A stretch of DNA of 64,000 nt from a virus, in the IMG/VR virus record IMGVR_UViG_3300005732_000005, positions 62,001 through 126,000 of that record; one strand, given 5' to 3'. Shown in pieces: positions 1,589 to 60,267 of this stretch. The notes under the pieces were generated by a model, which saw only the letters and a list, made by a program, of their open reading frames with translations, made no database searches and was not told the origin of the DNA. The position numbers and the translations under genes are program-made. How positions within the stretch are numbered: position 1 is the stretch's first letter; each line of letters begins with the position of its first letter.

Positions 1589-2635
1589 ATGGCAGATATC
1601 CGTCAAGGCGAACAGGGTTTACAGAATTTTACACCACTTATGGACTTAGTTCCTCGCCAAGAGAACATGCTACAACGTATGGGTCTATTCTCTGTAGTAG
1701 AATACACAACTGAGAAAGTAACTGAGTTTGAACGTCGAGTTCTTGGTATTGATACTATGTACTCTGTTGAGCGTGGTGCTGATCGTCAGTATGCTGGTGA
1801 TGAAGGCGCGCAAACAGCGTTACTAAAAATTCCATTCTTCACGTTAGATAAAGTTATCAAGCCTAGCGATGTTGACCAACTACGTGAGTTCTTAACAGCT
1901 ACTGATCCAGAGACAGTTCGTAGCCGTGTTGAGAAAGTTATTGCTCGTATCCAACGTGGTCACGTAGAGTTACACAAGAATGTAATGTATGAAGCACTAG
2001 TTAGTAACTCTACTTATGCTAAAGATCGTGCTGGTAATGACCGTGCTGGTTATGTTAAGAACTTCCAAACAGCTTTCGAAGTTGCTGATGCTGATATGTA
2101 CAACGGTGCGGCTAACGGTGCTAAGACTATCGACCTAGATGACCAAACTATTAACCCAGCAGATGAGTTTGAATTGTTCCGTAAGCACGTATTCAATAAA
2201 GCTGGTGATGGTGGTGACAACTATCGTCTAGTAGTGTTAATGGGTAGCGGTTCATTCACTAAGCTTAAGAATCACTCAGACTACGTAGAAGCTTTTGCTA
2301 ACTATGCTTCTAACGAAGAGCCTTTACGTCAACGTTTAGGTGGTCTACGTACTTCACGTGTTCTTGAGTGGCAGGGTGTTACTTACATCGAAGATGTTTC
2401 TGGTAAGATTGATGATGACAAGATTATCGGTTTCCCACTAGATATGGAAGATATGTTCCAACTTCACTATGGTCATGCTGACACTATCGCTGCTCAGAAT
2501 GGTGATGAGGCTGTTTCAGAAGCTTACCTTTACATCAACGAAACCGATGCTCGTAAGGTTGGCGTTGAAAGTGAAGCTGCTCTTGTGGCATGTATCACAC
2601 GTCCTGAGTTGATCGCTCGTTGGACAGAATCATAA
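1589..2635 (+). CDS. Major capsid protein, lambda gpE family
   Basis: 348 codons, ATG preceded by TTAGAGGAAATTTAAA. The N-terminal MADI..GEQGLQNFTPLMDLVPRQEN, the RRVLGIDTMYSVERGAD stretch, and the C-terminal YLYINETDARKVGVESEAAL and ITRPELIARW stretches are characteristic of the phage major capsid protein E family. Length is normal for the family (about 340 residues). It forms the HK97-fold shell. A strong terminator follows at 2657-2683, so this is probably the last gene of the head transcription unit and highly expressed. Confidence 0.9.
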   Translation: MADIRQGEQGLQNFTPLMDLVPRQENMLQRMGLFSVVEYTTEKVTEFERRVLGIDTMYSVERGADRQYAGDEGAQTALLKIPFFTLDKVIKPSDVDQLREFLTATDPETVRSRVEKVIARIQRGHVELHKNVMYEALVSNSTYAKDRAGNDRAGYVKNFQTAFEVADADMYNGAANGAKTIDLDDQTINPADEFELFRKHVFNKAGDGGDNYRLVVLMGSGSFTKLKNHSDYVEAFANYASNEEPLRQRLGGLRTSRVLEWQGVTYIEDVSGKIDDDKIIGFPLDMEDMFQLHYGHADTIAAQNGDEAVSEAYLYINETDARKVGVESEAALVACITRPELIARWTES

Positions 2636-2656
2636 TCGTTTATAAAACAATGACTT

Positions 2657-2683
2657 AGAGAGGACTTGTTCCTCTCTTCTTTT
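2657..2683 (+). terminator. Intrinsic terminator after the capsid gene
   Basis: Perfect 8-bp stem AGAGAGGA/TCCTCTCT with loop CTTGT, followed by TCTTTT. It lies 21 bp after the capsid stop codon. Confidence 0.8.
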
Positions 2684-2741
2684 ACTAAAGTATTTTCTTA
2701 GTAGAATATTTCACTAAAAGAATAAATCAGGAGAACAAATT

Positions 2742-3251
2742 TTGCAAGTAGCAGTTTTAAAAACTAAAAAACTATTCCTAGAGTTCCTTATTGAAAAGGG
2801 TCTAGATAAAATTAATATGAATAAATCTCTTCAGGACAAAGCTCGTTGGTCTGTATATGTTGATGACTTACGTATCTATAATGCCCGTCTAGCAGACTTA
2901 ATCCTAGAGTTGAACGAGTCTTTAGATATCTTTATTGACCCTTCTAAGAGTCGTCCTTTAACAATCAATGCTATCAAGTTAGTTTATTCAGAGGATAAGA
3001 AAGTTGCCGTACAACAAAAAGAAGCAGCAAAGCAAATCTTCCAAAAAGAAGAAGACAAAGAAGAAGCAAAAGATTCGTCGTTAATTGTTCCTGCGACAGT
3101 TGATTGGAAATGGATTGAGTCTTTAAAGAATAATAAAGAAGATAAAGTTAAGTTGGATGAGTATGCTCAGAAAGAGTTTAATATTGAACTGAAACGTTCT
3201 ATGACTCTTAAGAATATGATCGCTGACTTCAAAGAACAATTAGAAAAATAA
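2742..3251 (+). CDS. Head-region protein with C-terminal HeH/LEM-like motif
   Basis: 169 codons from a TTG at 2742. AGGAGA at about 2730 fixes this start. The protein is highly charged, with a Lys/Glu-rich middle (about residues 85-110). The last 35 residues, with LDEYAQKEFNIEL and SMTLKNMIADF, look like the HeH/SAP-type helix-extended-loop-helix motif that occurs at the C-terminus of many phage head-region proteins and probably binds DNA. The N-terminal 90 residues are not recognised. It is bracketed by two terminators (2657, 3279), so it appears to be transcribed separately or by readthrough. Confidence 0.5.
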   Translation: MQVAVLKTKKLFLEFLIEKGLDKINMNKSLQDKARWSVYVDDLRIYNARLADLILELNESLDIFIDPSKSRPLTINAIKLVYSEDKKVAVQQKEAAKQIFQKEEDKEEAKDSSLIVPATVDWKWIESLKNNKEDKVKLDEYAQKEFNIELKRSMTLKNMIADFKEQLEK

Positions 3252-3278
3252 ATAACAATTATAATTGTATAATAAGAT

Positions 3279-3313
3279 GCCCCTAACCTGATAAGGTTCA
3301 GGGGCTTTTTTTG
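3279..3313 (+). terminator. Intrinsic terminator
   Basis: Stem GCCCCT(-)AACCT/AGGTT(C)AGGGGC with a GATA loop and one bulged base, followed by TTTTTTTG. A textbook strong terminator 28 bp after the preceding stop codon. Confidence 0.9.
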
Positions 3314-3339
3314 TTTCTGTAATACACTAAGGAATACAG

Positions 3340-4233
3340 ATGAATTATAACAAAACTGTCTACACATCTCCAATGGTATTTGCGGCAGGACAGGATCATG
3401 AAATAGAAGCTCCTCTAGGTGATACTTATTTCATAACACTGACGGAATGGCAAAACCGCCCTTTAAACCTTCTTCCTGCGAGACCTGCTATTGAAAGAGA
3501 TAAGGTTATACGTAACACCTTGTTTATCCGAGACACTAATAGTCATATTGCAGATATTGTTACAGAAGGTGAAGATTTAAATGTAGTTGTGGCGCTCACA
3601 GAAGCCTATGGGATAGATATCTCATTTGATTGGACAATCACTCACGGTGGAGATTTTATCAACGGAGAAGCGAACTGGGAGAAGGACGAGAGTAACTATA
3701 ACTACCAGCAACTTCACAGAGACACTGTGGATGCGGATTACAACGCAACACTTACTGGGCAAGCTACTATTGCGGCAGGGGATACCACTGTGACTATCAC
3801 TATTCCCACTGTAGACGATGCTGTTTTCACAGGTGGTGAAAACTCTTACAAGGTAAGTACAATCACTTTAAGTAATTACTCTGTCGGTACAGGTGATATT
3901 CTTCCAGATGAAAGTCGTACAAGTTCTTTGATCATTATGAGTGATAGTTCTCCTAGACCTATTATAGAGGGCGTGGTCTCTTTATGGGTTCGTATGGGTG
4001 AAGATACTGAAATGGAGAGATTAGGTGGCAGGTCTGATGCTGTGAGTTTTTCTCTTGGTCAAGACACTAATGGAGATAGTCTTTTAGAAACTTGTATCTT
4101 TGATGATACCCCTATCGAAAAGCTTATTTTTAGAGTAGCGGAAGATCCTACAGCACCCAACGGTGAAGATATTACACAAACCACTTTAAGGTTTAATGCA
4201 CAAATTAAGTCTGGTAGAAGAAACCTAAATTAA
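3340..4233 (+). CDS. Virion/fibre-region protein with Calx-beta-like domain
   Basis: 297 codons. About residues 125-205 contain DYNATLTGQATIAAGDTTVTI, then TIPTVDDAVFTGGENSYKV and ITLSNYSVGTG, and end in SSLIIMSD. This is the pattern of a Calx-beta domain (D-Y..., AG.T..TI.I..., D....E...V.L), an extracellular beta-sandwich seen in adhesins and phage fibres. The flanking regions are not recognised. It is first in a co-directional series of large, low-complexity virion proteins after a terminator, so a tail fibre or head-fibre role is likely but inferred. Confidence 0.5.
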   Translation: MNYNKTVYTSPMVFAAGQDHEIEAPLGDTYFITLTEWQNRPLNLLPARPAIERDKVIRNTLFIRDTNSHIADIVTEGEDLNVVVALTEAYGIDISFDWTITHGGDFINGEANWEKDESNYNYQQLHRDTVDADYNATLTGQATIAAGDTTVTITIPTVDDAVFTGGENSYKVSTITLSNYSVGTGDILPDESRTSSLIIMSDSSPRPIIEGVVSLWVRMGEDTEMERLGGRSDAVSFSLGQDTNGDSLLETCIFDDTPIEKLIFRVAEDPTAPNGEDITQTTLRFNAQIKSGRRNLN

Positions 4234-4234
4234 G

Positions 4235-4243
4235 TGTTATAAT
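4235..4243 (+). promoter_or_regulatory. Extended -10 promoter TGTTATAAT
   Basis: TG-T-TATAAT just after the stop codon at 4233 and 29 bp before the next ATG (4272). No convincing -35. It is one of about ten near-identical extended -10 sites in the window. Confidence 0.65.
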
Positions 4244-4271
4244 AGTAGTATTAACAGAATAAGGAGCTATT

Positions 4272-6116
4272 ATGGCTATACCTAAGAGAGGATCTGGTGT
4301 TCCACCAAGGTCTGTTGGAGGAAAAGGTGGTGAAATTGCTGTACATAACACAGACTGTTCCTTACCCAATGAAGTATCTTCCTCAGTTAAAAGATTGGTA
4401 ATAGGTGAAGGTTTAGGTTTCACAGCTTATGTAGATGCTGATGATGAAGGTTGTATAATCATAGGGCAGCCGCCAAACTTCCTACCACCTCTTTGGCAAA
4501 TGGATAACCAAACCTCAACTATTGTAAGAGTAGGTCTTCCTGATGGAGGTAACTTCTTTGCAGGGCTAAATGATAACTGGGCAGGAACAGCGCGCACTGC
4601 AACACAGAACACATCACTAACATGGACTTCTGGACAATCAACGGGTTTCGGAAGTACATCCTCTGTTAATGTAAATATTACTGATGGTGGTTTGACACCT
4701 TATGCCAATTTGAATTTCCCTACAGCAGGTAACAGTGATACCACAACTGGTAGAGTACGGGTTCGTGTTACAGGTACAACTGCTGATGGTGATGGTAGTC
4801 GGAATGCAGCAACCATTGCAATAACGGTAGATTTACAAGGTTTACTTGATGATGCGGGAAATGGGCATACATCAGGTAGTTTTAGAGTAAGATTCACTCA
4901 CACAGATTTTGACGGTACTCAAAGGGTTTTTGAAGAAAGTTTCTTCTTAGATGATAATAATAATGCAGATATATTTATAAACCCTAATGCAACTGGCTTA
5001 AGAGAGTTTCACATAGAACGTGTACAACACGGTATAGGTAACGGTATTGTTAAGTACTTATCAGGTATTGGTTATTATACAACAGGTACTCGTTACAGTA
5101 TGACCACAGGTGTTGTTGAGAATCATAATCTTGACAGTAGTCGTGTAGACCAAAGTTATGTATTTGATATGGATGGTTTTGGAGTAGCTGACTATAATAC
5201 ATCTCCTTGGACTAGTGTCTCAGATTTCCAACTTATGCTTACAGATGTTGATAGGTTTGATAATCAAATGGGTTATGTACCTGATGACAGTACTAATACT
5301 ATCAACCGAGCAAACTTTAGACATATAGGATTTACTCAAGCACTAGTTAATGTTCGAGATGCTTGGGGTAGTAGTCCACAATACCCTTCTCCTAGTTTTA
5401 ACATGATGGTTGACACTTTTACTGATGATAGTACCAATCTAATTGAAACCTTCAACGGAGAAACTTTACGCTTAGAGGGTGATTATGCAACACCTTGGGA
5501 TAGTGAAACTATTAGAGCTGACGGCCATGCAATTGTGTTTGGTGGGGGATTGTATCGTGGAGTAGACTTGCCTACTATAGACGAGAATGTTTTAGGGGTA
5601 ACAGGTAGTTTAGGGGATGCTTCTGCATTCTTTCCTGACAAGTTTATGGATGACTCTGTAAGACCACAACCTAATTATTCAACTCACGCACAAAAGGCTG
5701 TATACTTCAGAGAGTTCAGGGCAAACAACCCAACCACCAGTTACGGCAGTATGACATTCACTATTACAACAGAGAATGGTATTGAGACGGATATCAATGC
5801 AGGTAATGTTGAAATTTACATTTGGAAGTTAGGTTCTAGTGCTCCAACTTCACCCAACCTAGTATTACCTCCAACATACGACCCTGCTAACCCTGACCTA
5901 AGTAAGGTTAATAGTATTTGGTTACATGAACCTTATGACTTTGGTAATTTTGATGACGGTGCTACACAAAATGTAGGTACGAATGGTTGCCTAGTTAATA
6001 TAGCAGGTAGTACTTTAACAGCTACCTTTGGTGGTGCTAATGTTGAAGGTGGTGTATTAGTAAGAATAGATATAAGCGGAGGCGCTAGGATAGATCATAT
6101 AGTAGCCGCTTTTTAA
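4272..6116 (+). CDS. Putative tail fibre / adhesin, 614 aa
   Basis: AAGGAG lies 5 bp upstream of the ATG. The protein is rich in Asn, Thr, Gly and Asp with alternating short beta-like segments, has no signal peptide or transmembrane segment, and a Pro/Gly-rich N-terminus (MAIPKRGSGVPPRSVGGKGG). Composition and neighbours fit a fibre-like receptor-binding or virion surface protein. I recognise no named domain. An aromatic- and Asp-rich C-terminal half could be carbohydrate-binding, but this is inference. Confidence 0.45.
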   Translation: MAIPKRGSGVPPRSVGGKGGEIAVHNTDCSLPNEVSSSVKRLVIGEGLGFTAYVDADDEGCIIIGQPPNFLPPLWQMDNQTSTIVRVGLPDGGNFFAGLNDNWAGTARTATQNTSLTWTSGQSTGFGSTSSVNVNITDGGLTPYANLNFPTAGNSDTTTGRVRVRVTGTTADGDGSRNAATIAITVDLQGLLDDAGNGHTSGSFRVRFTHTDFDGTQRVFEESFFLDDNNNADIFINPNATGLREFHIERVQHGIGNGIVKYLSGIGYYTTGTRYSMTTGVVENHNLDSSRVDQSYVFDMDGFGVADYNTSPWTSVSDFQLMLTDVDRFDNQMGYVPDDSTNTINRANFRHIGFTQALVNVRDAWGSSPQYPSPSFNMMVDTFTDDSTNLIETFNGETLRLEGDYATPWDSETIRADGHAIVFGGGLYRGVDLPTIDENVLGVTGSLGDASAFFPDKFMDDSVRPQPNYSTHAQKAVYFREFRANNPTTSYGSMTFTITTENGIETDINAGNVEIYIWKLGSSAPTSPNLVLPPTYDPANPDLSKVNSIWLHEPYDFGNFDDGATQNVGTNGCLVNIAGSTLTATFGGANVEGGVLVRIDISGGARIDHIVAAF

Positions 6117-9123: not shown

Positions 9124-11631
9124 ATGCCTAGACGCATAAATGATATACCTTTCCGCACAAGGGATCAGTTAAACAACACTTTCCAGATGATTACCACTAA
9201 TCCTGCGGATTTTACACAATTAAGTCGTGTAGCTGTGACAGATTTTCGTGGATCTGGTATATTTTACTCGTCACTTGAACCAACTATAAATCCCGAAGCA
9301 AATACAAACTTACCTAACTATATCCAGAATGATATATTTTTACGTGACTCTGCTGCGGGTCTACAACTGTACACATGGAACCATGTCGATGATTCTTGGA
9401 GCACCCCTAAGAAGTTAAACGGTATAAGGTTATTAGATTCTTCAGATTTCCCTTTAATACCTAACCTAGACTTACGTATCACCAACCTCATAAGTAATAT
9501 ACCTTTTGAAGCAGATTACTACCTAAACAATACACTTTCCCTTATTTTCGGTGGTTACGATGGAGCATTAGGTTTTAACTTCTCTGCTCAAGAGTTTAAT
9601 CGTTATAAAGCGATACGTAACGTTATCACTTTTACCTACCAAGGTACAGATGTTATTGGTTATGACGATCCCGCAGCTTACTGGACAGCTTTTATGGCCG
9701 ATACTGGTAAGACTGACCTTCAAAAAGCCACTTACAACTTCCCCACACACGGTGATACGGTACACATACTTCTAGAAGGTGATGAAGGTCACGGTGGTTG
9801 GTTATATACTTTTGACAATGGTATTACTGCTAACGATCCCTCTCAACAAGTTAATTATAATCTGAAATTTAATGCTGACCCTGCTGATTCCACAAGAAAA
9901 GTACATGCACGTCAGGAGAGGGTTTGGAGTGAGTTTGCAGAGCCTGTCCAGAACGATAAGAAATACCGTCAAGGGGATAGTCACTACGACACAGATAACG
10001 GTGTTCTGTGGTCAGGTTACAATGAAGGAATAGCACCAACAACTGACTTAACTGTATTGTTTGATAACTTTACTCACATGAAAGGTTCATCTCTTCTATC
10101 TGCTAAGGATGTTAATGGAGATTGGGAAGTTCCTGTTAAAGATGATGCTACCTATCAAGCAAATGATTATATCTTAACGAATACTAACAGTACACCAAGA
10201 ATACACGGCCCGTATGTAATGGGTGCTGCTAACGATCATGAAGCTTGGCCTTTGTATACTATTTTACGTGGCAGCATTGTTCATGACGTAACAGTAGGTA
10301 ATATTCCTACAGTCTTCACAGGTGATTACCCTACGATTGATGGTGTTATGGTTGCTTCGGGTGACACTATCCGAGAAATATATACACCTGATGTTAAAAT
10401 CTATGAGTACTATGATGGTGTTTTGATAGATTATAACTTAAAAGGTATGGCTTGGGGTGTGCTACGCAGACCAATACACCCAACAAGGGTATCCTACTCC
10501 TCAGAAACTTTACTTCCTGTTCGTAATGATAATATCTATTATGAAAATGAGATTGTAAGGAATGCCGTTGGGGACTTATTCCGTTATACAGAAGGTCAAG
10601 CTACTGACCAAGATGCCTTTACTCAGTTAGAGAATCTTAAAGCAAATGTAATATTTGTAGTAGAGGATGTTAATGGAGATTACGTACCTACTACCGTTAA
10701 CGACGGATCAATAGGTTTTATTGCTCAAGATAATGATACTCTAGAAGTGAGATGTACAGCTACTGGTAGTACCAAAGTTGTCCTTTATACTGCAAATGTA
10801 TCTGCTGATGGTACAACTATTACTTGGATAGATAGGCGTAGTAAGTTTGGTCAAAGAACTTTTGAAGATACAGGTTTTCTTGATCCTACCCCTAGTGTAG
10901 ATTTATATACTGAGGGAGACTATGTGGTCACAGCTTCAGGTAGAAGATACGAATACCATGAAACTAGTAATAATTTACAGTTTTCGGATTGGGTGCGTGG
11001 TAGTCATATTGAAGTAACCAATTCACTAGATAACAACTTCGCACCAAATATTGATAATGCCACTGGTCAGGTTTCAGGGTTCGGTAATATGATGGTTAAG
11101 ACAGGTGATGTTGCTGAGATTGTTATAACTGGGTCACCTACTGATAAAACCTTTAGGTATGAAGTTGTACAAGATTTCCCTATAGTACTAGGTCCCCGTA
11201 CAAATGTACACCCTACACGGTTATTCGACAGATCAAGTACAAACGCAAGACCTGTTGCTGATGACAGTCAATATACTAACGGGGACTTTGTAGATAATTC
11301 CGTGACTGGTATGAGATATGGTCCTTATGTAGAAAATGCCCCTGACGATGTAACAGCTTGGCCTGACTATCAACGTATTGGTGGTGAAGATTACAGTATC
11401 GACCTAGGGCATCAACCTAACAGACACTATCTTCAAAATGATCATGCTATTCACGATGGTAGTTTGTATAAAGCCCGTGTTGCTTTGAATGGTACAAGTT
11501 CTCCTATACCTTTTAACGAAGCAGATTGGGATTTAGTATTACAAGGTGTTCAGGATCTACGTGACAGTGACAACTCTAAACACACCATGAGTTTAGTAAA
11601 CGGGGTATTCACAGTAACACCTAAACCTTAA
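9124..11631 (+). CDS. Repeat-containing tail fibre protein, 835 aa
   Basis: A short module recurs about five times, starting near residues 274, 337, 465, 590 and 710. Its pattern is P-V-x-[ND]-D-x-x-Y-x-x-x-[DE], followed about 20 residues later by an aromatic segment. The clearest pair is HGPYVMGAANDHEAWPLY against YGPYVENAPDDVTAWPDY. Such repeated Tyr/Trp modules are typical of phage fibre shafts and glycan-binding tips. It starts 13 bp after the previous fibre gene and probably belongs to the same operon. No catalytic residues seen. Confidence 0.55.
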   Translation: MPRRINDIPFRTRDQLNNTFQMITTNPADFTQLSRVAVTDFRGSGIFYSSLEPTINPEANTNLPNYIQNDIFLRDSAAGLQLYTWNHVDDSWSTPKKLNGIRLLDSSDFPLIPNLDLRITNLISNIPFEADYYLNNTLSLIFGGYDGALGFNFSAQEFNRYKAIRNVITFTYQGTDVIGYDDPAAYWTAFMADTGKTDLQKATYNFPTHGDTVHILLEGDEGHGGWLYTFDNGITANDPSQQVNYNLKFNADPADSTRKVHARQERVWSEFAEPVQNDKKYRQGDSHYDTDNGVLWSGYNEGIAPTTDLTVLFDNFTHMKGSSLLSAKDVNGDWEVPVKDDATYQANDYILTNTNSTPRIHGPYVMGAANDHEAWPLYTILRGSIVHDVTVGNIPTVFTGDYPTIDGVMVASGDTIREIYTPDVKIYEYYDGVLIDYNLKGMAWGVLRRPIHPTRVSYSSETLLPVRNDNIYYENEIVRNAVGDLFRYTEGQATDQDAFTQLENLKANVIFVVEDVNGDYVPTTVNDGSIGFIAQDNDTLEVRCTATGSTKVVLYTANVSADGTTITWIDRRSKFGQRTFEDTGFLDPTPSVDLYTEGDYVVTASGRRYEYHETSNNLQFSDWVRGSHIEVTNSLDNNFAPNIDNATGQVSGFGNMMVKTGDVAEIVITGSPTDKTFRYEVVQDFPIVLGPRTNVHPTRLFDRSSTNARPVADDSQYTNGDFVDNSVTGMRYGPYVENAPDDVTAWPDYQRIGGEDYSIDLGHQPNRHYLQNDHAIHDGSLYKARVALNGTSSPIPFNEADWDLVLQGVQDLRDSDNSKHTMSLVNGVFTVTPKP

Positions 11632-11641
11632 TATGAGAGGC

Positions 11642-11675
11642 AGAGATGTCTCTTTATTTTTAAAAGAGAGATTAA
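11642..11675 (+). other. Hairpin ahead of the collar-type genes
   Basis: TCTCTTT and AAAGAGA pair (7 bp) across the loop ATTTTTA. The 3' arm contains the GAGAGA ribosome binding site of the ATG at 11679, so the hairpin could act as a weak terminator or lower translation of the next gene. Interpretation is inference. Confidence 0.35.
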
Positions 11676-20314: not shown

Positions 20315-20360
20315 AGAGTATTATATATTGTCAAGAATGATTTTTGTTGAGGAGGTGATT

Positions 20361-21614
20361 TTGAGAGGAATAGAAGATAGTTTTACAGGTACAAAGTTTG
20401 ATACTCCTAAAGGAGGTGTACTTACTGTGCTAGGTCATAATGGTTTGGCAGGGAATAAGAGGAAGTATTTCGTTGAGTGCAACATTTGTAGCAAGGATGA
20501 GGAGTTATTTCCTGATGGTTTTGTCTCCAGTAAAGGTAACCTTTTAATTGGTAGGATTCCGTGTGGCTGTGCTGTTAGTACTAAGTGGACGGAAGATCAA
20601 AGAATTGTCCAGATAAAACGGAAGTGTGAAGAGAGGGGTTACGATTTTCTAGGGTTGGCAGAAGAGTTTAAAGGTGGTCGTACTAAATTGAAGTTGTACA
20701 ATCCCAAAACAAACAATACTTGGGAAAGTTCAAATATAACAGGTTTCCTTCGAGGAAGTGGAGATCCTATTGAAGGGTTTTTGAAAACTAAGGAGGCTAG
20801 TACTTCACTTGATGAGGTACACATTGAAGAGTTTATTAAGACAGGTAAGTTCTTAGAAGGCACAACCTTCACACGTAATACAACTAAGAAGGATTCTAGA
20901 GGAAGGTATCCGTACTGGGATGTAATATGTCCTTTGTGCAGTGATGATGAATACGTGAAGAATCGTGTATGTTCTGGTATTTTTTCATGCGCGACCAGTC
21001 ACCTTAAAAGGGGTAAACTTACCTGCAGGTGCTCCAAAACTTACCGTTGGACACAAGATCAAAGAGAGTATCAAATCGGAAAAGTATGCTCGCAAGAAAA
21101 CCTTACTTTCATTGGTTGGGAGGGAGAGTATAAAAACTGTAAAAGTAAATTTAATTGGAAGTGCTCAGAAGGCCATAGGAACGTAACTTCTTTAAATGAT
21201 TTCTTAAAAGGTATCAGATGTACACAATGTTTTCAAGAATACTCGGTTATTAACGGTTATTACCCTGACCGAACGAAAGAACAAGATTACTTATATATCT
21301 ACTATTTATCTGAGGAGAATTATCTAAAGGTAGGAAGAAGCTTCAACTTAAGCCGAAGGCAAAAAGAGAACCAAATACGTATAAATAACTACAACCCACA
21401 TTCAAAAATACGTGTCCTTAAAACCTTTACAGGTACTCACAAAGATATATACGATCTTGAACAAAAAATCCTATCTGACTTGAAAAGTTTCCAAGTAAAT
21501 GGTTACGGTTCGAGTGAATTATTGTCTGTAGAAGCCTTACCTTCTATATGGAATATCATTAATAGTTGTCAGGAAGTGACTCTATACCAAAATAAACTTA
21601 TAAAAGAGGAATAA
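20361..21614 (+). CDS. GIY-YIG/T5orf172-like nuclease domain with zinc-finger repeats
   Basis: TTG start at 20361, chosen because a full anti-SD match (GAGGAGGTGAT) lies 5 bases upstream; an earlier in-frame TTG falls in the promoter. Two zinc-binding repeats, each with CxxC...CxC followed by W-T-x-D-Q-R and a F-x-G segment, span about 35-300. The last 100 residues (YLYIYYLS, YLKVGRSFNLSRR, DLEQKILSDL) look like a GIY-YIG-type fold of the T5orf172 sort: Y-I-Y, K-V-G-R, and a late Glu. It is likely a free-standing mobile or homing endonuclease. It is an isolated unit between virion genes, typical for such insertions. Confidence 0.6.
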   Translation: MRGIEDSFTGTKFDTPKGGVLTVLGHNGLAGNKRKYFVECNICSKDEELFPDGFVSSKGNLLIGRIPCGCAVSTKWTEDQRIVQIKRKCEERGYDFLGLAEEFKGGRTKLKLYNPKTNNTWESSNITGFLRGSGDPIEGFLKTKEASTSLDEVHIEEFIKTGKFLEGTTFTRNTTKKDSRGRYPYWDVICPLCSDDEYVKNRVCSGIFSCATSHLKRGKLTCRCSKTYRWTQDQREYQIGKVCSQENLTFIGWEGEYKNCKSKFNWKCSEGHRNVTSLNDFLKGIRCTQCFQEYSVINGYYPDRTKEQDYLYIYYLSEENYLKVGRSFNLSRRQKENQIRINNYNPHSKIRVLKTFTGTHKDIYDLEQKILSDLKSFQVNGYGSSELLSVEALPSIWNIINSCQEVTLYQNKLIKEE

Positions 21615-25922: not shown

Positions 25923-26479
25923 TATCTATTCTCCTCAAAATTAATTCTTACACTTTGCCAATACTTATCACTAACAGTTTTCTGACCTTCACACCTGTTT
26001 TTGCAATAATAGAACTTTCCAAACTTACCTTCTTGAGGTGTCATACTTTCTCTACAACAATTACATGTAGGAAATTCTTTATAAAGGTTATTGCTTGCTT
26101 CTTTATTCAACCAAGTAGTGTCATTTAATTTGGTGTAACCTAGGTCAATTAAATCTTCTTCTGATAGTGTTTCTGGATCAAAACGGTCTCTTTGGACATT
26201 TCCTGTTCTAGACTTAAGTGAGTGTGCTAGTTCAAAATCCTTCACTGCATGAGCTAACTCATTTTCAACAGCTTCCTTTGTAGGGATATAACTTCTATCC
26301 CAAGCAGATTCAACACTAGGATCACACTCTTGTCCCAGTTCATTAATGATACCTGCTTCATAAGCTTCGTGGATTCCTACTCTCCCTGCAACATAATCAT
26401 CACAAAAAGCTTCGTGGTCAATACACATATCTAAGGAATCTTGTGCATGTTGTCCAATTACAAAGCCTCCCAAACCCAA
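25922..26479 (-). CDS. Hypothetical protein with C-terminal zinc finger
   Basis: The C-terminal part has C-x-C-C (TCNCCRE) and, after a loop with GKFGKFYYC, C-x3-C, resembling a topoisomerase-type or zinc-ribbon finger; it ends INFEENR. The N-terminal 100 residues are acidic and helical. The start is uncertain: TTG at 26479 with AGGAAA upstream gives 185 residues and a 22-bp overlap with the previous gene; the first in-frame ATG is 17 codons later. Confidence 0.5.
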   Translation of the reverse strand: MGLGGFVIGQHAQDSLDMCIDHEAFCDDYVAGRVGIHEAYEAGIINELGQECDPSVESAWDRSYIPTKEAVENELAHAVKDFELAHSLKSRTGNVQRDRFDPETLSEEDLIDLGYTKLNDTTWLNKEASNNLYKEFPTCNCCRESMTPQEGKFGKFYYCKNRCEGQKTVSDKYWQSVRINFEENR

Positions 26480-26775
26480 GTTTCAACTTTCCTAAGTCTA
26501 CATTTTACAAACTCCTCTCCGTTTTCTAAGCAGTGTTTGGCATCTTTATATCTATTGTCTCCTTGGTACTCTTGCATCCAATATCCTCTCAAATGGTCTG
26601 GTGTAGGTTTATCACAATAATCTTCGTAACAAAAATAAGTATTATTTACAGAAATTAAGTACTTGGTTTGTGGTACACCCTTCCTCCTGTCAACAAGTAT
26701 TTCATCTTCCTCTGTGAAATTATCTACGAGTATGTCTAAGTCTTCTTTAGAAAGGTTGTGTGTTGATGTTACCAT
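26458..26775 (-). CDS. Hypothetical protein, 105 aa
   Basis: GAGGAG ahead of the ATG at 26775. Mixed, with VPQTKYLISVNNTYFCYEDY and a Trp-rich C-terminus (VETWVWEAL). Not recognised. Overlaps the next gene by 22 bp if that one uses TTG. Confidence 0.5.
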   Translation of the reverse strand: MVTSTHNLSKEDLDILVDNFTEEDEILVDRRKGVPQTKYLISVNNTYFCYEDYCDKPTPDHLRGYWMQEYQGDNRYKDAKHCLENGEEFVKCRLRKVETWVWEAL

Positions 26776-26843
26776 TATTTATTCTCCTCAAAATTAATTT
26801 CAACAAAATGTATCTTATCGTAAAAGGGTTGTTTGTGCAAGTG
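26775..26843 (-). pseudogene. Possible remnant of a duplicated gene 3' end
   Basis: Between two genes, 22 codons without a start codon read ...FYDKIHFVEINFEENK-stop. The last 10 residues nearly equal the end of the zinc-finger protein at 25922 (VRINFEENR). This suggests a duplicated and decayed 3' end, now serving as the leader and ribosome binding site for the gene at 26775. Confidence 0.3.
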
Positions 26844-28109
26844 TTAAAACTCTATGTCGTAAAAACAGTTTCTATTATCACCAAGCACTTCTTTCCAACC
26901 ATCCCTCATAGTCTGTATCAGAAGGTCTCTATCATTAACTGAAACTACAAAACTATCGTGCCAAGGAAGTACACATTTACTAAGGTTCGTGAACACGTTT
27001 ATAACATAAGCTGCAATCTCAGAATCATAGTGTTGCAACATTGCCCACAAATCTTCTTTACCAAACCAGTGAGCTATATTTTCATTCTTTTCAATAAGCC
27101 TATCGAATATTTTTGTTATATCTCCCTTCCCAAGACGGATACCTTTGAATTCAGACTTTTCTGAGAATATCTTGAACAAAGCTGCTTTTGCTGTTTTAAT
27201 ATCCTTGGAGTTAAGTAGACACATCATAGCATATTTACTTAAAAGTCTGGATGAATTTGTATCATCACCCTCTCCAAGTATATCTTTTATACAACAGTAA
27301 GGTTCCCAACTCATAGGTTTATAAACTTTATCTATTTCCATTAAGATTCTAGGGTGCATCTGTTTAAAATCAACTTCTGTTGTTTTCATTCCATTAATGG
27401 TTATGTGTTTCCTGAACTCAGATCTGGTAGTTTGTAAACAACTTTGAGTGTACCACCTACCATGCTTATCTAAACAGTCAGTGAAAACTCTTTTATATAC
27501 TGCACAAACAGGATGCATTTTACACCTTATATCGAAAGCTTCAAGAACCTTATTATACTTTACTACAAGCTCTCTTTTATTCTTTATACCTCTTAATTTA
27601 CTTAATTCGGTAATAAGGTCTCCCGTCTTAGAATCCCTAAGTTCGATAAATGTTGCAACAGGAAGTGGTCTACCTACACGCTCCATATCTACCTTATCAA
27701 AAACTTCTATAAGTCTATCAGTTATAGTGTAGCAACTTTTTAAACTGGTATTTGTTTCTAGATCAAAGAAACCTTTATACAGATTTATGTAACCTAGTTT
27801 ATCAAGTGTTTCAACAACCCTCTTACACTTTACATAAGAGATCTTACTTCCATTAAGTTCATTTGCCTTTGTGTAATTAGCTTTTCGTAAGGAAAACATG
27901 CTACCACTAAGTCCCTTTTTTATAGGGTTAATAGCTGATGTGATAAAAACCCAAACCTCTTTTTTGTGATTACTAGGTAAGTACTTCATAAAATGATTGT
28001 GGACAGGTATAAGCTTCTTATTCTCATTGAAACCTATATAGAAAGGTTCACAACCTATCGTTATTAATGTTCTGTCTTCTGGAGATAGATCCTTTAGATT
28101 TATTGTCAT
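26844..28109 (-). CDS. Winged-helix + TV-Pol-like polymerase/replication protein
   Basis: About 421 residues. ATG at 28109 is preferred because AAGGTGA lies 8 bases upstream; an ATG three codons earlier is possible. Residues about 50-145 (VWVFITSAINPIKK, KRVVETLDKLGYINLYKG, CYTITDRLIEVFDK) look like a winged helix of the replication-initiator type. The rest matches the superfamily-A palm described as TV-Pol (transposon/viral polymerases): motif A TTEVDFKQMHPRIL with the metal Asp, a helix with KYAMMCLLNSKD, and motif C LPWHDSFVV with a His-Asp pair. Proposed role: template-directed synthesis or replication initiation by the phage or a resident selfish unit. It is coupled to an upstream RHH gene. 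Confidence 0.6.
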   Translation of the reverse strand: MTINLKDLSPEDRTLITIGCEPFYIGFNENKKLIPVHNHFMKYLPSNHKKEVWVFITSAINPIKKGLSGSMFSLRKANYTKANELNGSKISYVKCKRVVETLDKLGYINLYKGFFDLETNTSLKSCYTITDRLIEVFDKVDMERVGRPLPVATFIELRDSKTGDLITELSKLRGIKNKRELVVKYNKVLEAFDIRCKMHPVCAVYKRVFTDCLDKHGRWYTQSCLQTTRSEFRKHITINGMKTTEVDFKQMHPRILMEIDKVYKPMSWEPYCCIKDILGEGDDTNSSRLLSKYAMMCLLNSKDIKTAKAALFKIFSEKSEFKGIRLGKGDITKIFDRLIEKNENIAHWFGKEDLWAMLQHYDSEIAAYVINVFTNLSKCVLPWHDSFVVSVNDRDLLIQTMRDGWKEVLGDNRNCFYDIEF

Positions 28110-28251
28110 TACATTCACCTTCGTTATTTAGGTTAATATTGTTAATCATTATGTAATTTACGCATTTAAGTATATAAGTGGCTCTGGACATACTAGCTCT
28201 ATTAGAATCAATATACTCTAATATAGGTCTAGGAAGTATCAATTTCAACAT
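28048..28251 (-). CDS. Ribbon-helix-helix (CopG/Arc-like) protein, 67 aa
   Basis: ATG at 28251 with GGAGAAATACTT upstream. The N-terminus LKLILPRPILEYIDS then MSRATYILKCVNYIM has the form strand-helix-turn-helix typical of RHH regulators. The basic, Asn-rich tail overlaps the start of the TV-Pol-like gene by 62 bp. Overlap suggests translational coupling, as in plasmid copG-rep pairs; autoregulation of the polymerase gene is inferred. Confidence 0.6.
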   Translation of the reverse strand: MLKLILPRPILEYIDSNRASMSRATYILKCVNYIMINNINLNNEGECNDNKSKGSISRRQNINNDRL

Positions 28252-28344
28252 AAGTATTTCTCCAATAAGTATGTATATAGTTAGAAAGGGGAGTTCATAT
28301 GGTTCGCTAAAAACTATAAAACCTATATAAAATAATCACTTAAC

Positions 28345-28575
28345 CTACGTTTTTTGAATTCGGTTTGTTAAATGTATCTCTATTTCACCTCCCAATACCT
28401 TAATAACTTCTACTATTACATCCACACTTACATCAGATCCTGACCTAGTTAAAATAGAGGTTAATTGGGATTTGTGAAAACCTCCATCTCCCATCGCAAC
28501 TATTTGGTCGTAGGTGAGCTTGTTTTCATACTTGAGAGTTTTAACTATATCGCAAAGCTTGCTTTTAACATTCAT
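28345..28575 (-). CDS. XRE/Cro-like DNA-binding regulator, 76 aa
   Basis: ATG at 28575, supported by AGGAGA; an ATG six codons earlier sits at the predicted transcript start and has no ribosome binding site. The sequence KLTYDQIVAMGDGGFHKSQL then SVDVIVEVIKVLGGEIEI has the helix-turn-helix and C-terminal dimer strand seen in small XRE/HigA-like proteins. Likely represses or activates local promoters; no toxin partner is seen next to it. Confidence 0.6.
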   Translation of the reverse strand: MNVKSKLCDIVKTLKYENKLTYDQIVAMGDGGFHKSQLTSILTRSGSDVSVDVIVEVIKVLGGEIEIHLTNRIQKT

Positions 28576-28598
28576 TTGATTTCTCCTGTTCATAATAC

Positions 28599-28607
28599 AT
28601 TATACCA
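28599..28607 (-). promoter_or_regulatory. Extended -10 promoter TGGTATAAT (minus strand)
   Basis: TG-G-TATAAT, predicted transcript start near 28592, about 17 nt ahead of the XRE gene start at 28575. The interval 28608-28822 has no gene I can support. Confidence 0.65.
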
Positions 28608-28822
28608 TGAATATTTCTATATACCAAGTTTCCTGAACAACTATAAAAGTAGGTAGGTTTTATCAAGATTATTCTCCTACAAATTACCCCTATTATACAA
28701 CTATGGTGCCCTCTAAGACGTAAGTCTATGTTTCATAAGGAAAAGCACCTCTAAAATTACCTATCACTGGAACACTAAAAAACCACTCCCATTTGCAACA
28801 ATTTTCCTTCGAAATAATGACC

Positions 28823-29104
28823 TCATCTCAACTTCACACTACTGGCACAAAACTTATAGCTAGAACAATCATTAGCCACAATATGCTTGCCAATAAAAGT
28901 TTTCATATGTTCAATAAATTCATCATTTGTCATATCATCTAGTGTATCCACATCTCCAAAGGTGCCATCTTCATCATCAATTGCAAAATCAATAATTACA
29001 ACACCTCCAGTAGTTGTCTCTACAATAAACCCTTCGAAATAGGATTGTTCCCACACATCATCATAACCCTCTTCCACACCTACAATTTCACCTTCAATCT
29101 TCAT
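28823..29104 (-). CDS. Hypothetical acidic protein, 93 aa
   Basis: GAGGTTGTT upstream. Very acidic beta-rich protein (IVGVEEGYDDVWEQSYFEGFIV, IIDFAIDDEDGTFG). The EGF-[IV]V-x-[TD] segment resembles the protein at 29392 (EEGFVVTDGG), so they may be distant relatives. Not recognised. Confidence 0.55.
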   Translation of the reverse strand: MKIEGEIVGVEEGYDDVWEQSYFEGFIVETTTGGVVIIDFAIDDEDGTFGDVDTLDDMTNDEFIEHMKTFIGKHIVANDCSSYKFCASSVKLR

Positions 29105-29146
29105 AACAACCTCTCACCATTATACCTACAGTAGTGTGATATTTAA

Positions 29147-29395
29147 TCACTTCCAAACCCATTGAATCTTTGTCTCAGAATATCCTTTTGGGAAAACTAT
29201 GTCAATTGTGTAATAAGTATCAAGGTCTTTAATTACATCAATAATTTCGAAACAATACTCATTTTTCAATTGATCAATCACTTCATCAAGACCTCTTATA
29301 GACCCGTAAGCACTCAAATAGTTTTTAATGGAAAGTTTATCCGAAAAAGGGAAATTATATCCATCACTATCTAGGTAAAAATATTTCTTATTCAT
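29147..29395 (-). CDS. Hypothetical protein, 82 aa
   Basis: AAGGAGTTGTT ahead of the ATG, overlapping the stop of the upstream gene by ATGA. Acidic/aromatic, with IDVIKDLDTYYTIDIVFPKGY. Not recognised. Confidence 0.55.
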   Translation of the reverse strand: MNKKYFYLDSDGYNFPFSDKLSIKNYLSAYGSIRGLDEVIDQLKNEYCFEIIDVIKDLDTYYTIDIVFPKGYSETKIQWVWK

Positions 29396-31127: not shown

Positions 31128-31847
31128 TTAAATAAACTCATCCTCTTTAAGTTTCTTATGTAAATAAAGCTCACCTTTTCCAGTGACCATTGTTACATTG
31201 AAAACTCGACTGTTCCTAGTAGTCTGTTTCACCACAAAGTAACCTTGATCCACAAATCTTTGGTAAGGGCGGTTGTTGTCCATAAGGATCTTAAGTTCTC
31301 TTAATTTATCGTATAGCTTATTCCTGCCTACACCAAGAGCTTTCGCTACACTATTCATATCCTGCAGATTAACTACCTCACTAACATCATTGGCGAAATC
31401 AATCTTGTGCTGATTGTCTTTTCTGAAAATCAGTCCTTCTCTGATTATAGTTTTAGCATCTGCAGGTAAGTCTTTGTAGAATGTCTCCATAATAAGGTCT
31501 ACATCACTAACAAAACCACCTGTCTTACGTATTGTTGGTAATACTTCTTCCATCACCCAATCTTGGAATTCTTCTGCATTAGACATCCTACTCCTCATTA
31601 CCAACCTATACACATCTTTCTCAGGGATGAGTTTAATACCTGTAGGTTTTGCATCCATACCTAATTCTAACGTTTCGTTATAATTAAGTTTAATCAAGAA
31701 CTTACAATGGTCTTTTAAGGTTTTACTAGGATTTGTGTACTCTAGTATCTTACAAACCTCGTTACCTACAAAATAAGGTTTATCCTCATAAACCACCACT
31801 TCCAATTGACCAAAAACTTCATGGTCAAACTTATTCACTTTCGTCAT
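31128..31847 (-). CDS. Phage antirepressor, BRO-N + KilAC
   Basis: GGAGAAAGATT ahead of the ATG. Residues about 10-110 (LEVVVYEDKPYFVGNEVCKI, YTNPSKTLKDHC, PEKDVYRLVMRSRM, FQDWVMEEVLPTIRKTG) are a Bro-N domain. Residues about 150-239 (MNSVAKALGVGRNKLYDKLR, PYQRFVDQGYFVVKQ) are a KilAC/ANT domain. Such proteins counter phage repressors or rewire host transcription. Together with XRE and RHH genes nearby this suggests a repressor-type switch, although no integrase is visible. Confidence 0.85.
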   Translation of the reverse strand: MTKVNKFDHEVFGQLEVVVYEDKPYFVGNEVCKILEYTNPSKTLKDHCKFLIKLNYNETLELGMDAKPTGIKLIPEKDVYRLVMRSRMSNAEEFQDWVMEEVLPTIRKTGGFVSDVDLIMETFYKDLPADAKTIIREGLIFRKDNQHKIDFANDVSEVVNLQDMNSVAKALGVGRNKLYDKLRELKILMDNNRPYQRFVDQGYFVVKQTTRNSRVFNVTMVTGKGELYLHKKLKEDEFI

Positions 31848-50366: not shown

Positions 50367-53300
50367 TTAGTGTGCTCCAGCCCACCCTTCTGTGTGATGA
50401 GCTACCAAGTATTCCCCTGTAATGTGTACAGGACAGTTTAATTCCTTGTAGGCATCCTCTATACACCTTACCATTAACTCACCTGCTCTGGAGTAGCACC
50501 TTCCTATACTTCCGTCCTCAAGAACTTTAGTATTACCTGAAAGTATAAATTTTCCACCCTCAAGATTATCAGCCTGATCTTTTGCCTCTATGATACACTT
50601 GAGTTGCTCCATTGTCATGTTGTATTCTTTTAGCATTTCTTTAGCTGTCTTATAGGGCTTCCCTTTTGATTTAGCTTTCTTAGATTTAGCTACATCTGCA
50701 AGTAATCTTTTTACAAGGTCTTGATCTGAAAAACCTGTTTCAAATCTCTTCCATCGGACAAGTTTGTCTGGAACTTGTAGCTGGTATTCATCCTTCCTGT
50801 TATAAGAGTCGTTAGCTCTTTCTGAGATCACTCTCAGTGTCGGGTCATATCACATTCCACGAGGGAATCCCACCGTTTCAGATACACTTGTATCCTACGA
50901 ACAACTACGTTCTGACCTCCGCACGTTCCCTTTCGGGCTTCGCTCAGGATTACCTCGTAAGGCTTCCCTGAATTAGATGGGTTTTTCGACATACATTGCT
51001 GTATGAAGCCACAATGAGTTTATGGTAGTAAATGGTCCTAGCTACACCCTTATCCAACAAACCTTCTTCTAAAGCTCTCTCGTGCCACAAAATACCTGCC
51101 AAATCCATCCCTATAGCTCCTGCACTTTGGAGATAACAATTTAACAATGAGTGCTTACTTCGTGTCCAGATTTTTCTTCCGTCAACGGCAACGATATACT
51201 TTTTACCTGAAGATTCCCAAACTTTCTCTAGATGTTCCTTTCTTTTCTTTAATCCGATGTTTCCATCCCAGAAAGCATCAATAACTTTTTGTCCTACTTC
51301 CTTACTTACTCCTAACATATTTGCTATTTTAGGGGCTGCTGCACCATACATTATCGTTACAGTCACACAAGGTCGTTAATCTTGCGCGGTTCTCTTATGA
51401 ACTCCTGTACGTCTCCGTACAGACTAGACTATATCTTTCTCTTCAACTTTACTTGTTAAGAGATCTGCCGTTTCGATTTAAAGCTTTCCGCTACCACTTG
51501 GCTCTACTCCCATCTCAGGGATAGTCGTTACACGTTCAAGAACATAATGTTCAAGCTTCGCTCGGTATTGTCTCTTCAAAAGAAGTAACTTCCACCGAAT
51601 TAGACAGTATTCAATTATAGGTTTCCCTATAAAGGGGCTAATTATTTAACCATAAGTGATGCCTTTGCCACCTTGCCTAGTTACCTCCCTTCCTGCAGCC
51701 TTGGAGTAGTTTTCAGCATTTCTTGAGTGAGCATCTTCTTCCTCCATTATCCTAAGATATTCTCCTCCGTCAAAGTCATAGGCTGCCCACGCTGCACACA
51801 TCCCTTCCAAGTTACTACCATCGATACCTAGTTGCCAGAATCCTTTTGGAACGGTGAATAAGCTCCTCATTTCATGACCTAAAAGTGCATCTGTAGAAGG
51901 TATATTTGCTATAACTGAGTGTTTTCTGCGATTCGTATTGGTCAGACCACTATATCTTGCAGGTAATTTACCATCTATTTTCAGACGAGGGTGGTTCAGC
52001 CAACCAGTTTCCTTATCTTCGTCAAAAGCTTTAATTACCGACCTCCTGTTACGAAGAGATAGCCACTTAACTATCTGACCCGCCATCTCACCATCAATCT
52101 TTTCCAGATTAGGGCAAAGCTCCCCACGATCATCTTTCAACTTTGCAGACATCGGTAAGAATCTTCCCTTTTTAACCACCCTTTGCATATCTTTGTGCTT
52201 CTCAGAGGTGATTTTCCTAATATCGAAGCCCATCTCCTCATTAATCCATTTTATGTAGATGGAGTCCTTCTTATCCTGCACCCATTCCCATGCCCTTTCC
52301 AAGACTTCAAATTCTGGGCGGTTCTTCTTGTTCTCGTCTCTTGTAACATCTTTTGTTCCTAGTATGGTAGGTATCCAACCACCTTCCTTAACCAACCACT
52401 CCTTTATATCTGCCTGATTAGCTAGTTTCATCGGCTCTTTTAAGAACTCTTCTGGAATATGTCTATCCTCTAATTGTTTTCTTAGTTTCTTCATCTGGTC
52501 ATCAGGTAAAGGAACTAAGGTATTAGCTTTATTAAGCTGACCACGTATAAAATCGGGCATCTTATCTTCATCCTCCACACCCATCTTAATACAATAGTTA
52601 TAACCGTTCTTACTTAGAGATCCGTCCTTCTTAAAGGCAGTTTTCGGAGGAGATACGTGTTGAAAGTATTCCTCATTAGGTTTGTAGCCTAAATACTTTC
52701 TTGCATAGTTCCATCCGTGACTACTTATTTCCCCTGCCTTATCAAAAGGATTAGCTGGAAAGTTAGGTTGACGACTCTCAGGTACATGTTTTAAAGGCAG
52801 TTTGGGTTCCACATCTTCCTCTATTTCCCTCATCATACTATCCACTTTCTCAAGCAATTTCCAAGCAGCCTTTTCATCGAAGACTACTCCCTGCTCCTCT
52901 TGGATTTGCATCAGATAGTCTGATTGAGAATTTCTTAATAAGGGAACTCTCCAATCAATACCCTTATCCTTCCCATCCTGAGATTCTTTAACCAAAGCTT
53001 GCCATTGCAATTCATTTATGATCACATCAACCCATACTCTGTCGCAATACTTCCACAAAGGTAGCCCTCTCCAGTCTTCTATTTGAACTTTTTGATTTGC
53101 AAGCTTATAGCCCCAGCTCTCTAATGAATGGCTGCCAATCGTCTTAGCCTTACCTCCAGAAGGATTCTTAACCTTAGAGGGACATCCGTGAGGTAATGGT
53201 CGGTCAGGGTATAGTGCCCTTGACATACTTAGTGTATCAAACAATCTTAGTTTTCTACTACCAATACTTTCTGGAAACATACTTGATTCCAATCCAAATT

Positions 53301-53607
53301 GATCAGCGATTGCCAGCAAATCGAATCCAAACTGGTTTTGACAACCTATAGCAGAAATGTCAGAGTCGTTCTCAATCCAATCAGGAAACTCTTTTAAATC
53401 TTTAATTCTTAGGTTGACATTTTTCTTATCAACAAATTCTTTTGCTTCTTTAAACTCGGGATGGGAGTGATCAAGAAAGATCACCCAATCATCTTTTGCA
53501 TATTGTTTAAAGAGCATTACGTGAAAGTGCGTCATATGGTCTTCAGGTGCAATGCTTTTACCAGCTAAACCGTCACTTTCAGTATCGTAAATATATAAGC
53601 CCTTCAA
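50367..53607 (-). CDS. DNA polymerase, family A, split into three exons
   Basis: Exons on the - strand: 53607-51649 (653 codons), 51354-51022 (111), 50792-50367 (141 plus stop), giving 905 residues if spliced. Exon 1 has the 3'-5' exonuclease motifs YDTESDG, NQFGFD and YCDRVWVD, and polymerase motif A DGSNLEGM with R-x3-K of motif B (RQGGK). Exon 2 completes motif B (IMYGAAAPKIANMLG) and ends in YYH; exon 3 starts DEYQL, restoring the catalytic HDE, and ends GWAGAH, the usual family C-terminus. All junctions fall between codons. The unspliced frames would be inactive fragments. Replicates the phage genome with the primase-helicase upstream. Confidence 0.85.
50793..51021 (-). other. Intervening sequence 2 (group I-like intron candidate, 229 nt)
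   Basis: Inserted between the His and Asp codons of the HDE motif. The exon ends in T and the element ends in G, as group I introns do. It is GC-richer and very structured (GAAGCCCGAAAGGGAAC; GGTGGGATTCCC). I do not see the common GACTAT/ATAGTC P7 pair; AGGTCA and TGACCC could form an alternative. No ORF inside. Subtype unresolved. Confidence 0.6.
51355..51648 (-). other. Group I intron in the polymerase gene, 294 nt
   Basis: Splits motif B between KGITYG and IMYG. The upstream exon ends in T (GGT), the intron ends in G (AACG). The conserved P7 elements are visible: TAACGACTATCCC and GATATAGTCTAG, with GACTAT pairing ATAGTC, in correct order. The first three bases TAA stop the unspliced frame. 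No ORF inside, so it depends on a protein in trans for mobility. Confidence 0.8.
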
Positions 53608-53620
53608 TACTTATCTCCTC

Positions 53621-55393: not shown

Positions 55394-55433
55394 CTTCTTA
55401 TTACCCCCTGTTCTTTTGTTCTTATAATAACCA

Positions 55434-55925
55434 TCAGAATTTCCCAATTTCCATCTCCTCTAACTTTTTCAAACCGTCACTAGCCTCACAAGCTAATCTA
55501 TCCGCTAAGTCATTCATTGGGTGGTCGGAATGCCCTTTTACCCACTCCCATTCTACAGAGTGATATTGGCAAAGCTTATCTAACTTTTGAATAAGGTCTT
55601 TGTTCTTAACATCCTTACCGTTAGCCGTTTTCCACCCTCGCCTTTTCCAACCACTCAACCAAGTTGTCATACATTGTATACAATACTTGGAGTCCGTTAT
55701 TAACTTCACATTGCAAGGCTCCTTTAAAGACTCCAATGCTAAGATACATGCTGTGAGTTCCGAGATATTGTTAGTCCCTTCAGGTATAGGATGCGAAATC
55801 TCTTTCATTTTACCTTTATACAACAAAACAACTCCTGCTCCACCATGATACTTAGTTTTGTCCTTTATTTGTTTTATAGCACTTCCGTCTGTGTAGGCTA
55901 CAACACACTTCCTCTCCCCACTCAC
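55434..55925 (-). CDS. Ribonuclease HI
   Basis: 163 codons from a GTG at 55925 with GGGGAGAG upstream. Complete set of catalytic residues: YTDGSA (Asp), NISELTACILAL (Glu), LITDSKYC (Asp) and the terminal NDLADRLAC (Asp), plus the basic protrusion SGWKRRGWKTANGKDVKN and VKGHSDHP. Removes RNA primers or R-loops. GTGA overlap with the upstream gene indicates coupling. Confidence 0.95.
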   Translation of the reverse strand: MSGERKCVVAYTDGSAIKQIKDKTKYHGGAGVVLLYKGKMKEISHPIPEGTNNISELTACILALESLKEPCNVKLITDSKYCIQCMTTWLSGWKRRGWKTANGKDVKNKDLIQKLDKLCQYHSVEWEWVKGHSDHPMNDLADRLACEASDGLKKLEEMEIGKF

Positions 55926-59107: not shown

Positions 59108-59108
59108 A

Positions 59109-60257: not shown

Positions 60258-60267
60258 ACTCATTCTC

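Follow-up and report, generated by a model that had tools for sequence, protein, structure and literature searches.

What does a large marine phage with its own replicase do with a second, small polymerase gene whose start lies within the gene of a putative DNA-binding protein? The question is raised by a 64,000-nt stretch of a virus record (IMG/VR IMGVR_UViG_3300005732_000005, here G000; 140,374 bases), namely its positions 62001-126000, which are called the window in the following. The phage's own family A replicase, already pointed out in an earlier note made from the letters of this DNA, matches phrog_17 (E 4.6e-68). The second polymerase gene is overlapped by a ribbon-helix-helix (RHH)-like gene and forms a cassette with it and a helix-turn-helix (HTH) gene. 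Based on motifs and predicted fold, we assign it to the TV-Pol family, and it may start phage DNA replication in a role not recognised so far. The best explanation of the data as a whole is an origin-linked TV-Pol-family primase-polymerase under HTH/RHH control, to which we attach a probability of roughly 0.4.

The fold was taken from AlphaFold2 because routes using sequence only reached no named polymerase family. The window polymerase matched no Pfam family at E <= 1, none was common to its relatives, and it matched no family in NCBIfam. PDB sequence searches gave no polymerase: one yielded two matches, the best (E 1.8e-4) being a chain named 'EF hand family protein', another none, and a third two irrelevant ones. 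The AlphaFold2 model, built on an alignment of 32 sequences (A5, see below), reaches a mean predicted local distance difference test score (pLDDT) of 90.7 and a predicted template modelling score (pTM) of 0.87 and displays a palm/fingers fold. Foldseek against the PDB resulted in 69 matches at E <= 0.001, led by 9qsc (apicoplast polymerase, apPol; E 9.1e-7), and the best 50 of these 69 are all family A DNA polymerases. In the VIA structure comparison, the yeast mitochondrial RNA polymerase 8att (Z 15.0, root-mean-square deviation (rmsd) 3.7, 256 aligned) stands next to 9qsc (Z 14.7, rmsd 4.1, 236 aligned) and the T7 RNA polymerase 1s76 (Z 13.6, rmsd 3.8, 257 aligned). Since DNA and RNA polymerases tie in VIA, the substrate is not readable from the structure matches. 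The comparison with predicted structures from viruses gave mainly uncharacterised phage proteins at the top; a replication protein of Zamilon virus, a relative of Sputnik, came at rank 41. The Sputnik TV-Pol is included in the founding TV-Pol paper (PMC2579912).

The palm proposed in the earlier note is thus predicted with high confidence by AlphaFold2 and recurs in the Foldseek and VIA matches. Motif A (EVDFKQMHPR, with D247) and motif C (PWHDS, with D385), as read there, are present in the polymerase open reading frame (ORF), and this pair is not a chance occurrence, because the model fold matches family A polymerases. The model region for the thumb holds one long helix (residues 175-190, read without inspecting coordinates); the published TV-Pol thumb consists of two antiparallel helices. 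For the N-terminal domain, the term winged helix is based on topology, because its matches to solved structures are weak (best Foldseek E 0.049, VIA Z <= 5.8) and mix winged-helix regulators with ribosomal proteins. No Rep initiator is found among the best 50 matches of each N-terminal structure search, an absence which proves nothing. The 'initiator-like winged helix' of the earlier note is hence plausible as a winged helix, but nothing specific speaks for initiator-like.

Conservation was evaluated in two alignments. A1 comprises the window polymerase and 23 sequences gathered by tblastn without using the motifs (n=24). Here, G113, R218, R233, D247, Y271, S363, H384 and D385 are invariant (24/24), and E245, H252, R288, K292 and D362 are conserved to at least 90%. 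Loss of one of the two aspartates in homologues, by which the prediction could have failed, is not seen in any of the 24. In A5 (n=32) the residues R218, R233, D247, H252, R288 and K292 are invariant; the conservation of D385 and S363 in A5 is not independent, because 28 of its 32 rows were picked by a pattern containing motif C. The ratio of non-synonymous to synonymous substitutions (dN/dS) is 0.03 for VnaP versus 10AMN and 0.11 for J2-1 versus G001, with three wider pairs at or near saturation. Judged by these ratios, the polymerase gene is under purifying selection. Its product is very probably an active enzyme.

TV-Pols were first reported from transposons and viruses (Iyer, Abhiman, Aravind 2008, PMC2579912). 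They are marked by a pair of aspartates in the palm, an absolutely conserved arginine of a hairpin before motif A and RxxxK in the fingers (PMC2579912). In the window polymerase we find the aspartates D247 and D385 (24/24), two invariant arginines in A1 and A5, R218 and R233, either of which could be the published one, and R288 with K292 in the fingers, all within a superfamily A palm/fingers fold. A pattern at the DNA level (LQ..DS, 17 residues, LP.HDS) retrieved 44 viral stretches, 41 of them with a profile-matching ORF (not L068, L069 and L100), and protein-pattern searches of viral contigs recovered only two contigs and one ICP1 record. The same DNA pattern detected at least 119 stretches in bacterial genomes, 80 of which were examined. 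A pattern ORF is present in 73 of the 80; the phage profile matches all 73 (best E 2.7e-76), and most of the 64 matching ORFs with at least 380 residues align from profile position 20-90 to ~425. Their hosts include Rhodobacterales, SAR116, Loktanella and Desulfobacterota and overlap with the taxa of the TV-Pol paper. Among a total of ten neighbour ORFs scanned at six bacterial loci, phage integrases (L134, L150) and type I restriction-modification genes (L178, L150) were found. The bacterial neighbours therefore fit the published TV-Pol setting at 3/6 loci. We equate these bacterial ORFs with the published TV-Pols by common motifs, taxa and setting, not by accession. Taken together, fold and family of the polymerase are close to certain, and the TV-Pol assignment of the earlier note holds. 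In one Pseudodesulfovibrio assembly (L165) two TV-Pol genes stand in tandem (2349-3716 and 3965-5299).

The polymerase belongs to phrog_4756, which takes in 32/32 members of A5, and the RHH-like gene to phrog_31326; PHROGs lists both with unknown function. To the former, an unannotated phage family, a function class is now assignable. Its spread is considerable: out of 50,697 phage records, 246 gave a tblastn match at E <= 1, with Rheinheimera (114) and Vibrio (103) ahead of Aeromonas (14) and others; many of the 246 are near-identical isolates. Within the literature searched, with subscription papers and preprints mostly outside its reach, phrog_4756 was not found by name and 'ribbon-helix-helix' coupled with 'TV-Pol' was not mentioned jointly.

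The longest polymerase ORF (26844-28118, minus strand) begins at GTG 28118, and the conserved start is ATG 28109. The ribosome-binding sequence GAAGGTGA 5' of this ATG falls within codons of the RHH-like gene, whose overlap with the polymerase amounts to 62 nt when measured from ATG 28109. As no Pfam model matches the RHH-like window gene at E <= 1, the RHH label was read from the strand-helix-helix pattern of its sequence. The overlapping upstream gene noticed earlier was thus recovered. Of 24 phage loci (the window and 23 named ones), 16 have an RHH-like ORF next to the polymerase; in 15 of these it overlaps the polymerase start by 11-62 nt, and in one it stops 52 nt before that start. Divergent RHH ORFs were judged by eye and the closer ones are backed by an RHH profile; two of its 13 matches (L052, L053) cover the tail only and were not taken as RHH. 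The HTH gene, first in the cassette, matches PF13744 with an E-value of 4.1e-5, which is under the curated cut-off, and a homologue lies just upstream in 9 of the 23 other phages. This includes ICP1 with the trio ORF98, ORF99 and ORF100.

Between the HTH and RHH genes lies a conserved 17-nt element, GCGAACCATATGAACTC, of which the window has a single copy, against 0.12 expected at three mismatches. Its core GCGAACCATAT is found 5' of the cassette in 11895-B1, 249E41-1, VnaP, 10AMN, J2-1 and G001, with one copy each in the four of these six whose genomes were retrieved (J2-1 minus its last 295 bases), and was not found in 277E43-1, which carries a different cassette allele. The element is thus seen 5' of the cassette in the allele class of the window alone. 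The flanking sequence mostly does not align between the phages. The element may represent an operator or an initiator site. No terminators were found (0.9 expected), and promoter matches are no commoner than in shuffled sequence. The coordinates are summarised in the table.

Features of the cassette and of the encoded polymerase (positions in the window)
Feature	Position	Strand	Remarks
TV-Pol-family polymerase gene	26844..28109	-	421 aa from ATG 28109; phrog_4756, E 3.4e-129
N-terminal winged-helix-like domain, residues 1-148	27666..28109	-	AlphaFold2 of the domain alone, pLDDT 95.0
R218 codon, arginine before motif A	27456..27458	-	invariant in A1 and A5
Motif A aspartate D247 codon	27369..27371	-	invariant, 24/24 (A1) and 32/32 (A5)
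Fingers RxxxK, R288 to K292	27234..27248	-	>=90% in A1, invariant in A5
Motif C aspartate D385 codon (HDS)	26955..26957	-	invariant, 24/24 (A1)
RHH-like gene, 67 aa	28048..28251	-	phrog_31326, E 8.2e-16
Conserved element GCGAACCATATGAACTC	28291..28307	-	~40 nt before RHH start; single copy
HTH gene, 82 aa, HTH_37-like	28345..28593	-	first cassette gene; phrog_8994, E 1e-21

With the major head protein at 1.6-2.6 kb of the window and a head protein, tail sheath, tape measure and baseplate genes at 33-44 kb, the cassette lies between the head and tail gene blocks. Where neck or tail genes are annotated nearby in other phages (L003-L006, L009, L010, L020, L022), it points away from them. A Bro-N/KilAC antirepressor gene is located near the cassette (31128-31847, minus strand); a Bro-N/KilA-C gene is also described for the TV-Pol element of Brucella (PMC2579912). 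Some kb off on the other side there is an endonuclease gene (20328-21614, plus strand; phrog_681, E 1.6e-100, with a weaker match to an HNH endonuclease family).

The cassette is exchanged as a whole. Over 70.9 kb, 249E41-1 and 277E43-1 share 95.5% identity, and their second polymerase copies are nearly identical. At the main locus the flanks reach 85-96%; within the cassette only stretches of 67 nt and 97 nt align, the polymerases are of two distinct subfamilies, and just one of the phages has the upstream element. As the two differ across the whole cassette between aligned flanks, regulators, site and polymerase swap together. A tree calculated for 66 sequences places the window polymerase with 249E41-1, VnaP, 10AMN, 11895-B1 and J2-1 (six rows, support 100/100); the tree omits the second PWH3a copy and contains one PWH3a row twice, and it lacks further copies because its c2/c3 rows are derived from a motif search in fetched pieces. 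The identity of the window polymerase to four phages is 65, 73, 67 and 64%, which ranks 3/33, 1/25, 4/31 and 5/51 among ORF matches of at least 80 columns (medians 38, 35, 41 and 39%). To 277E43-1 it is 32%, an ordinary value (rank 14/23). A profile search found two to three polymerase copies in 12 of 25 records, which were picked for holding a match (an 81-base third row of W11, abutting the second copy, was excluded). Stop codons were counted inside the second copies of W11 (qdvp001; 81972-83390) and W13 (2L372X; 10380-11648), which may be genes in decay or have true frames that are shorter. Homing endonucleases are annotated directly 3' of the polymerase in 4 of 23 annotated loci (L007, 7393-8448; L009, 5270-6157; L010, 5245-6153; L023, 4334-5281).

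The phage's other replication genes (50367-55447) look mosaic as well. A group I intron (Rfam RF00028, 74.9 bits; 51405-51657, minus strand) divides the own polymerase into pieces at 50950-51366 and 51646-53607, which are 69-86% identical to VnaP and 32-57% to two other phages. The primase-helicase shows 77% identity to 11895-B1 and 26-27% to three others, and the tail genes ~40% or less to J2-1.

How might such a cassette start replication? In our proposal, three genes (HTH, RHH, polymerase) at a fixed head/tail locus of large marine gammaproteobacterial phages would be transcribed early in infection from a promoter just 5' of the RHH gene. The RHH and/or the HTH protein would bind the conserved upstream element and limit expression; that this element closely precedes the RHH gene hints at autogenous control. 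Owing to the gene overlap, translation of the polymerase would follow that of the RHH gene. The winged-helix domain would then bind DNA at its own locus or close to it, so that the polymerase would act in cis at the origin and make the first primer or strand, before a hand-over to the family A polymerase and the primase-helicase for bidirectional (theta) replication. Exchange as one unit would be expected because regulator, binding site and polymerase must match.

A possible link to an origin comes from ICP1. Sequencing reads taken 8 min after infection peak 'near the 60 kb position', which fits bidirectional theta replication (Barth et al., PMC7145576); the strain used was ICP1_2006_E lacking CRISPR and cas2-3 (PMC7145576). 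In the deposited sequence of ICP1_2006_E the homologue ORF100 occupies 58951-60618, about where this early peak was reported. Moreover, 14 polymerase copies in seven genomes lie at a mean distance of 5.8 kb from GC-skew minima, compared with 11.7 kb for rotated positions (P 0.0007). An origin-linked primase-polymerase is further favoured by CcPol of the TV-Pol group, which together with MP starts DNA synthesis without a primer (PMC7581432, PMC10061031).

Several points weigh against an origin role. The ICP1 peak position is approximate and was obtained in 1 kb bins (PMC7145576), ORF100 could lie several kb left of the peak with a shortened mapping reference, and the co-location is suggestive only, because it was noticed after the fact. 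The support from GC skew is weak, since the minima mark divergent transcription and proximity to early genes is perhaps incidental. No iteron array surrounds the cassette, with only short two-copy repeats in 26300-29200. Priming by CcPol depends on its partner MP, and no search for such a partner was made here. In 7 of the 24 loci the polymerase has no recognisable RHH neighbour at all, and in one the neighbour is a non-RHH ORF. A D5 helicase, with which TV-Pols usually pair, a resolvase, integrase or transposase is not annotated directly beside any of the phage polymerases, whose neighbours were not scanned systematically. On balance the origin role stays tentative and falls somewhat short of an even chance. 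That large marine phages carry one to three swappable initiator-polymerase cassettes, each its own origin and with the early theta origin of ICP1 as first mapped example, is unlikely on present data; such a cassette would move as a whole and comprise a winged-helix primase-polymerase, the regulators paired with it and a cis site.

A different view of the same exchange is that of a selfish swapping cassette, aided by homing endonucleases, which primes repair synthesis or its own spread and not main replication. It would account for the allele replacement at one locus in 249E41-1 and 277E43-1, for polymerase identities of 64-73% where the ORF medians are 35-41%, for the endonucleases directly downstream, for the multiple copies, and for the first finds of TV-Pols in transposons and viruses (PMC2579912). 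A main copy at a fixed and not scattered position, strong purifying selection and a cassette in which neither an integrase nor a resolvase was seen argue otherwise, and exchange alone is no mark of selfishness, because the phage's polymerase and primase-helicase look swapped too. We regard this view as unlikely. The plasmid-like selfish module suggested in the earlier note stands in part: the allele swap and the high identities speak for mobility, but the conserved locus, the wide distribution, the additional HTH gene and the missing iterons speak against an isolated insertion. A plasmid-type iteron replicon was dropped for want of an iteron array in 26300-29200.

Allelic diversity at a fixed locus, as observed here, is typical of conflict genes, and the polymerase is surrounded by small unknown genes. 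It might thus be a de novo polymerase for host takeover, counter-defence or competitor exclusion instead of genome replication. The AbiA profile match that would fit (E 0.0053) is weak and far from convincing, and the overlap with a DNA-binding gene as well as the ICP1 position suit replication better, so that we consider a conflict polymerase improbable. A role in defence, for which AbiA was the sole match, was rejected, and the phage-encoded 'inhibitor' considered earlier is without support. Still less probable appears a single-subunit RNA polymerase that would use a promoter-like site of its own to make transcripts or primer RNA. Family A includes the T7-type RNA polymerases, the top rows in VIA are mitochondrial RNA polymerase initiation complexes, and a conserved single-copy element is located upstream. 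Yet DNA polymerases tie with these in VIA (15.0 vs 14.7) and come first in Foldseek, and TV-Pol relatives are predicted (PMC2579912), and CcPol is shown (PMC7581432), to make DNA.

A primase function is the standing prediction for TV-Pols. The origin-linked primase-polymerase would be a concrete candidate for replication start in the well-studied cholera phage ICP1. The satellite PLE interferes with ICP1 replication, and of the ICP1 replisome it is said that in its complete form it 'has yet to be characterized' (PMC9040626). If the origin role is true, large phages would have exchangeable origins in the form of cassettes around a primase-polymerase; if each of the one to three cassettes is an origin, phage origins would be swapped between lineages as phage polymerases are.

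Compared with known systems, the window polymerase shares with the TV-Pol family the two palm aspartates, the arginine before motif A, RxxxK, a length of 400-600 residues and the lack of an exonuclease, and the phage profile covers most of the length of the bacterial members. It differs by its occurrence in large phages owning PolA and a primase-helicase, by the HTH/RHH coupling and by one to three copies per genome. CcPol-MP of SCCmec (PMC7581432, PMC10061031) is similar in that its polymerase is small, belongs to family A and the TV-Pol group and is tied to replication start. Its partner is OB-fold and single-stranded DNA-binding protein-like, whereas the small neighbour here is RHH-like and the polymerase has its own winged-helix-like domain. 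PolA with the T7-type helicase-primase (ICP1 Gp58/Gp57) has a family A polymerase in the same genome as the cassette. In contrast to the latter, it consists of full replicase genes, at 50-55.4 kb of the window and more than 20 kb from the cassette.
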